From: Natrialba swarupiae
GTDB taxonomy: Archaea; Halobacteriota; Halobacteria; Halobacteriales; Natrialbaceae
Reading direction: 5' to 3'
Length of the DNA stretch: 64,000 nucleotides
NCBI RefSeq assembly: GCF_008245225.1
Contig: NZ_VTAW01000010.1
Coordinates: forward strand, 1-64,000
Part shown: positions 23,808-41,663 of the stretch, piece by piece
Layout: every line of letters begins with the position of its first letter
Numbering within the stretch: position 1 is the first letter of the stretch
The notes under the pieces: generated by a model
Seen by the model: only the letters and a program-made list of their open reading frames with translations
Told to the model about the DNA's origin: nothing
The model's database searches: none
Translations under genes and position numbers: made by a program

Positions 23808-23891
23808 GGTGGGGTGGCAGAGCGGCCCAACGCGCCTGCCTTGAGAGCAGGTGGCTGTCAAGCCTCATGGGTTCAAATCCCATCCCCACCG
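23808..23891 (+). tRNA. tRNA-Ser (anticodon UGA)
   Basis: 84 nt. Acceptor GGTGGGG pairs with CCCCACC at the 3' end, discriminator G. The anticodon stem CCTGC/GCAGG holds the loop CTTGAGA, giving anticodon TGA (reads UCA). A long variable arm (GTGGCTGTCAAGCCTCAT region) marks it as class II tRNA-Ser. T-arm ATGGG TTCAAAT CCCAT is canonical. CCA is not encoded. Two and a half copies of a tail-derived module follow. Confidence 0.95.
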
Positions 23892-24165
23892 TTGCTGTCG
23901 CGAACAATCACGTGAGCGACAGCGAGGCTGATGGGATTTAAAGCATACTGAGGTTCTGCGAGCGAAGTGAGCAGGTTCTCAGGAGCGGTTCAAATCCCAT
24001 CCCCACCGCTTCTGCGACGAACGGACGTGAGGAGCGAAGCGTGGATGATGGGATTTGAATCAGACCAGTCGCGCGCAGCGGAGCGAGCACGTCTGGGCGT
24101 GGTTCAAATCCCATCCCCACCGTTTTCCTGCGACCAACTGCGACGAGCGGACGTGTCACGCAGAT
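23892..24165 (+). repeat. array of tRNA-Ser tail modules (two full, one partial)
   Basis: The 22-base 3' tail of the tRNA (T-loop through discriminator, starting GGTTCAAATCCC) recurs exactly at 23987-24008 and 24101-24122, periods 117 and 114 bp. Each module also holds an inverted partial copy of the tail: GATGGGATTT (23930-23939) and GATGGGATTTGAA (24047-24059), so each forms a long stem ending in the tail. Internal hairpin GCTGTCGC/GCGACAGC lies at 23894-23923. The third module starts at 24123 and breaks off after CGGACGTG near 24155. A core at 24067-24094 recurs behind tRNA-Leu. Confidence 0.8.
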
Positions 24166-41456: not shown

Positions 41457-41578
41457 TGTGTGGGACCGGATTCGAACAACGCGAAGACGTGCTCGCTGCG
41501 CTGCGCGCGACTTCTCTCGTTCGAATCCGCTCTTGCTCCTTCACTGCAACTGCTCGCTTCGCTCGCAGTTTTGTTCAG
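41457..41578 (-). repeat. tRNA-Leu tail module
   Basis: A degenerate copy of the tRNA-Leu 3' tail (GTTCGAATCCGGTCCCACA in tRNA orientation) ends at 41457, 122 bp beyond the end of the tRNA. Between the two lie an inverted tail copy (41519-41529, CGGATTCGAAC in tRNA orientation), a hairpin with GCGAGCGAAGCGAGC, and a 28-base core at 41485-41512 that matches the core of the tRNA-Ser module (24067-24094) in 27 of 28 positions. The order of parts is the same as behind tRNA-Ser. Confidence 0.75.
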
Positions 41579-41663
41579 TGCGCGGGACCGGATTCGAACC
41601 GGCGGACCCCTACGGGACAGCGTCCTAAGCGCTGCGCCGTTGGCCTAGCTTGGCTACCCGCGC
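41579..41663 (-). tRNA. tRNA-Leu (anticodon UAG)
   Basis: 85 nt. Acceptor GCGCGGG pairs with CCCGCGC, discriminator A. The anticodon arm CAGCG-CTTAGGA-CGCTG gives anticodon TAG (reads CUA). A variable arm (TCCCGTAGGGG region) marks class II tRNA-Leu, and the T-arm CCGG-TTCGAAT-CCGG is canonical. CCA is not encoded. The D-arm contains GCCAAGC and GGCCAACGGC elements. Confidence 0.95.

Follow-up and report, generated by a model that had tools for sequence, protein, structure and literature searches.

Exchangeable hairpin units behind haloarchaeal tRNA genes: a candidate integron-like cassette system at T-loop copies

Results

Two related modules in the window

The window, the whole 64-kb stretch of DNA that was analysed, is part of contig C4 in a haloarchaeal genome of 4.2 Mb. 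Behind tRNA-Leu(UAG) it carries the same parts in the same order as behind tRNA-Ser(UGA) (Table 1), just as an earlier note on this DNA had described the module, and the two 28-base cores that the note had found nearly identical (41485-41512 and 24067-24094) differ at a single position, which is N in a GCGNAGC triloop. The note had also held that both tail copies at tRNA-Leu match their host. This is true of the direct copy, which is fully host-specific (TTCGAATCCGGTCCCACACA compared with ...CCCGCGCA, 18/20 identities), and only partly of the inverted copy, which is mainly universal T-loop. About 39/50 orthologues of tRNA-Leu(UAG) have kept the unit, in which a Leu-specific anti-tail recurs, and a Leu-specific GAGCAGGACCGGATTYGAA, similar to the inverted copy, is seen again in other families.

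Two units stand behind tRNA-Ser(UGA) in the window's genome, one in the relative G344 and none in G341. The sole G344 unit is orthologous to the second unit of the window in its first hairpin (H1) and inverted copy and has a different core, and the DNA 3' of the empty tRNA-Ser(UGA) gene of G341 resembles the DNA that follows the last copy in the window (a weak match, score 17).

Table 1. Features of the tRNA-Leu(UAG) and tRNA-Ser(UGA) loci in the window.
Feature	Positions	Strand	Basis or remark
tRNA-Leu(UAG)	41578-41663	-	ARAGORN; Rfam RF00005 match ends at 41579 = N73
tRNA-Leu(UAG) tail, T54-N73	41598-41579	-	ARAGORN, Rfam RF00005
Leu(UAG) unit, 102 bp	41578-41477	-	sequence
H1 part of Leu(UAG) unit, GAGCGAAGCGAG hairpin directly 3' of N73	41539-41578	-	sequence, folding
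Leu(UAG) inverted copy GAGCAAGAGCGGATTCGAA: anti-T-loop and T-stem, extending imperfectly into acceptor	41520-41538	-	
Inverted T-loop GATTCGAA within the inverted copy	41527-41520	-	
Leu(UAG) core hairpin: 2x3 internal loop and GCGCAGC triloop	41477-41519	-	
28-base core inside the core hairpin	41485-41512	-	
Direct copy of tRNA-Leu 3' end (T54-N73)	41457-41476	-	18/20 identical
tRNA-Ser(UGA)	23808-23891	+	ARAGORN; T54-N73 = 23872-23891
First Ser(UGA) unit: H1, inverted T-loop, CTGAGGTTCTGC-type core	23892-23988	+	absent in relative G344
Ser(UGA) direct tail copy 1	23989-24008	+	20/20 identical
Second Ser(UGA) unit, with 28-base core at 24067-24094	24009-24102	+	
Ser(UGA) direct tail copy 2	24103-24122	+	20/20 identical

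Anatomy of a unit

Units are 60-165 bp long (median 104), non-coding and oriented like their tRNA. They run from a T-rich start through H1, an inverted T-loop copy and the core hairpin, end in CTCCGG, GCGTGG or similar, and are followed by the tail copy. In 126 tRNA/copy pairs, chosen for at least 18/20 matches, the tail copy extends from G53/T54 to N73, with identity of about 95-100% from 53/54 to 73 and background on both sides. The units have no terminal inverted repeats (5.2/10 compared with 5.0 when swapped), and no genes were found inside them.

The inverted copy pairs with tRNA positions 54-65. It covaries strongly with its host at R57 (0.89 compared with 0.52 shuffled), Watson-Crick pairing at 62-65 is significant but partial (0.70/0.58/0.40/0.42 compared with 0.50/0.33/0.24/0.32 shuffled), and host specificity is at background from position 66 on. 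The idea that the inverted copy is a full host-specific tail copy was rejected, its host specificity reaching on average only to about 65, although at tRNA-Leu(UAG) it continues imperfectly into the acceptor. G.T and A.C mismatches at inverted:tail positions 62-65 occur equally often (77 and 69), which gives no sign of favoured RNA wobble pairs; such covariation without an excess of G.T points to copying at the DNA level. A 2x3 internal loop, mainly GA/GCG or CT/TYC, lies two to three pairs above the T-loop stem in 70/209 folded hairpins and does not rank among the 15 loop types that are most frequent in shuffled cores. The sequence GCGNAGC, which forms a very stable DNA mini-hairpin, is present in 150/209 units compared with 13.7 after shuffling, and its N takes all four bases.

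A second class of module occurs at L012 and L016 (tRNA-Ala) and, after copy 1, at L040 (tRNA-Arg(GCG)); it has an inverted copy of the acceptor end instead of the T-loop and a direct copy of about 10-16 nt. Separately, a (G)TCTTGCRG-like motif, perhaps the arm of an integrated element, lies within about 170 nt downstream of five unit-less tRNAs (L009, L019, L026, L274 and L284).

Distribution among tRNA genes and genomes

At up to 3 mismatches the window's genome holds five cores and the reversed control none: those at Ser(UGA), Leu(UAG), Val(CAC) and Pro(CGG), and one at C99:134 accompanied by a tRNA-Val(UAC) tail copy. The last belongs to an orphan unit (L005) at a contig start, and the tRNA-Val(UAC) gene itself (L021, C82:2116-2189) lies on another contig and lacks a unit; the two have probably been separated by some event. 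In three related genomes, 59/132 tRNAs are followed by a copy of their own tail (at least 80% identity, within 330 nt downstream), a frequency not attributable to chance because foreign tails gave such matches in 2.0% of trials and the upstream side in 2/132.

Named haloarchaea carry the 28-base core at 77 places, in 69 of them directly downstream of a tRNA gene, on the same strand and 49-336 nt behind it, and in 7 beside displaced or cut-off tRNA tails. This is the core search for which the earlier note had called, and with 76/77 cores tRNA-linked and direct flanks matching the neighbouring tRNA at 91%, against 44% when shuffled, the association that it had predicted holds well beyond the window. 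One exact core alone has no tRNA link (L144). Its hairpin, which no tail copy accompanies, stands close to the 3' end of a dnaK-like gene and possibly represents a terminator-like reuse.

The hairpin pattern of an anti-T-loop, 25-55 bases and a T-loop is present in 378/392 Halobacteriales genomes, where the matches also include background such as tRNA-Ser(CGA) itself, and in 22/204 genomes of the rest of the phylum, with one or two matches each, close to chance. Across 33 tRNA anticodon types the units share one core and one architecture. No free, plasmid or viral copy turned up in plasmids, in phages or in viral contigs, the last searched with one core and two hairpin patterns. One 'Bacteroidetes' MAG contig (PXTT01000074.1, L102) carries an archaeal-type tRNA-Val with a unit and is probably a mis-binned haloarchaeal contig.

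Turnover of units between relatives

Relatives differ in their number of units, and the breakpoints fall at N73|unit and unit|T54. Units gained or lost are mostly those next to the tRNA, gain and loss being indistinguishable in most single comparisons: tRNA-Arg(GCG) differs between relatives by one extra, tRNA-adjoining unit, and tRNA-Cys by one unit against an empty site. Presence and absence at unit boundaries were also seen for Met and Ser(CGA), with degenerate or repeated flanks. In 41/49 informative cases from arrays of several units, preservation is better in the tail copy closest to the tRNA; at some sites whole units were replaced instead of changing stepwise, and displaced units have inserted DNA between them and their tRNA. 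Leu(CAA) was considered as a perfect empty site, with agreement at 55/55 bases after the last copy, yet was left uncounted because at the G344 locus the duplication is larger and takes in flanking DNA as well.

Two further loci may be mentioned. tRNA-Asp (L022) is tandemly duplicated together with its unit, and tRNA-His (L036) has no unit here and one in G341, the reading frame downstream resembling, by eye, a tyrosine recombinase.

Exchange of cores

The core changes apart from the rest of the unit. The left arms at the tRNA-Asp copies that stand in tandem in G344 are 94% identical and their cores, at 54%, are unrelated, and in two Haloferax species (L101 and L106) the cores of two neighbouring units are reciprocally swapped. 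Of 138 pairs of units at the same tRNA, 50 combine a left arm of at least 78% identity with a core below 60%. Between different tRNA types, cores reach at least 90% identity in 240 unit pairs, in 173 of which the left arms are below 60%. This bears out the earlier claim of a core that moves among tRNAs, and it does so independently of the left arm; left arms are common to different tRNA types in 62 pairs. The sequence comparisons thus show cores swapped between units and between tRNAs, left arm and tail staying in place. The earlier note had further supposed that the flanks take on the sequence of the host tRNA. Their match to the host stands, while acquisition after a move need not occur: in the cleanest exchanges (tRNA-Asp, Ser(CGA) and Ser(UGA)) the host had a unit beforehand and the core alone changed.

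Discussion

The earlier note knew of no described element that follows such a rule, and our search of the open-access literature and of Rfam likewise found none; a scan of six loci returned only tRNA and RNase P above the gathering score and no family for the units. Integrons come close in several respects, with a directional array that stands beside a fixed platform and changes mainly at that end, a junction of the form G|TT, and units that end in an imperfect hairpin with an unpaired spacer and a variable top. The R box of attC sites has the consensus RYYYAAC/GTTRRRY, and no GTTRRRY box stands at the junction here, which is G|TTCRAATC, the tRNA T-loop; unlike integron cassettes, moreover, the units are non-coding and their platform is a tRNA gene. 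The folded attC hairpin, with its unpaired spacer and variable terminal structure (PMC2727003), does have a counterpart in the 2x3 loop, fixed in 70/209 hairpins with variable tops. The PATEs and SMRs of Haloquadratum are likewise non-coding, palindrome-bearing mobile repeats of about 100 bp from haloarchaea, but they make no target duplication and have not been described as tied to tRNAs, and PATEs, with a target of 4-6 bp, relate to IS605 ends (PMC3119063), whereas copies of 20 bp flank the units. CRISPR arrays hold unrelated spacers between identical repeats; here the units are related hairpins. Integrons, casposons, CRISPR, PATEs/SMRs and ordinary tRNA att sites each fail in at least one tested defining feature.

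The reading that we prefer, to which we give about an even chance, is that these are integron-like, tRNA-attached arrays of exchangeable hairpin cassettes that recombine at T-loop copies with the help of a putative recombinase acting in trans. All changes would be recombination between T-loop-bearing repeats. Exchange of tail with tail would add, remove or reorder whole units, usually beside the tRNA, and exchange at the inverted and direct T-loops would swap the core alone, so that a common core could move among tRNAs with no tRNA damaged. Because T-loops are common to all tRNAs, cores could spread while host tails stay, and breakpoints in these universal copies would account for the rule in the earlier note. 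The least certain step is the enzyme: a recombinase may use the tRNA T-arm (5-bp arms, 7-bp loop) as a double-stranded site and a folded single strand, made of the inverted copy, the 2x3 internal loop and the hairpin, as its partner. The crossover would lie near G53|T54, and the reaction would resemble the joining of attI to folded attC by IntI. Against the cassette reading, the 20-bp repeat could recombine without an enzyme. On a strictly integron-like scheme an inserted cassette would have to bring a host-fitting tail, and whole-unit moves between tRNAs would therefore be limited.

An unlikely alternative, in our estimate, is that the unit works as RNA, in the form of a 3' trailer that acts as attenuator, terminator or folding checkpoint. 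Its inverted copy would pair with the tail of its tRNA or with the downstream copy, and its cores would be interchangeable stems. Nearly all genomes of the order carry units, always downstream and on the same strand; the Leu-specific anti-tail is kept at most tRNA-Leu(UAG) orthologues; the T-rich start after N73 and the conserved 2x3 loop fit such a role, and in Haloferax hairpins can end transcription (PMC7237163). A trailer RNA is harder to reconcile with covarying inverted:tail positions that lack an excess of G.T over A.C, with a clear tail copy in under half of the tRNAs in the three related genomes, and with units that come and go within one genus, and the folding results take sense and antisense together. 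An argument for RNA function from conservation alone was rejected because palindrome correction at the DNA level yields the same covariation. Such correction is part of an enzyme-free explanation, which we likewise consider improbable, in which stable hairpins stall replication, and template switching with unequal exchange at short T-loop/tail homologies duplicates units, swaps cores and corrects imperfect palindromes. Every breakpoint falls in short repeats, the inverted copy loses host specificity with distance from the T-loop and GCGNAGC hairpins abound in units, all as this process would have it; yet the edges at 53/54 and 73 are sharp across the whole order, units are confined near-completely to tRNA 3' ends and to one order, and drift is not expected to give a fixed 2x3 loop geometry.

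Elements already known to use tRNA 3' ends were weighed as well. Casposases rely on upstream leader determinants and duplicate a target at a tRNA 3' end (PMC6614799), and the arrangement of repeat, unit and repeat, in which the platform-proximal repeat is duplicated, is shared with casposons and CRISPR adaptation, as is consistent with the tRNA-proximal polarity of the arrays. A Cas1-like integrase that inserts units and duplicates a 20-bp target in this manner is nevertheless very unlikely: casposons have duplications of 14-15 bp and terminal inverted repeats, against repeats of 20-21 bp and no inverted ends here, and the units are homologous hairpins that encode nothing, Cas1 included. We give still less credence to the units being attachment-site scars of ordinary tRNA-integrating elements. 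For archaeal tyrosine recombinases the tRNA 3' end is a frequent att site, and the duplicated sequence is likewise a T-arm/3'-end segment (PMC8371274); some units have also been pushed away from their tRNA by inserted DNA. But such att copies flank kilobase elements with integrases, and what lies between the copies here is a non-coding hairpin unit of about 100 bp, without integrase or cargo and with relatives at most tRNA types; unrelated elements would not leave one core and one architecture over 33 anticodon types. The inserted elements sit between tRNA and unit and therefore form a separate layer.

Whichever reading applies, the units are a near-universal feature behind the tRNA genes of a well-studied archaeal order. 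Carried to its full extent, the cassette reading would make this a Halobacteriales-wide system of gene-less cassettes, in which the T-arm of nearly every tRNA gene is an integration platform and small non-coding hairpins are its folded single-stranded partners, a proposal that we advance tentatively and as somewhat doubtful. If the units are cassette-like, they would represent a new kind of recombination system whose platforms are tRNA genes, which might help to explain the integration hot spots at tRNA 3' ends; if they are RNA-based, they would represent a new kind of tRNA trailer control. Both readings are testable in genetically tractable haloarchaea.
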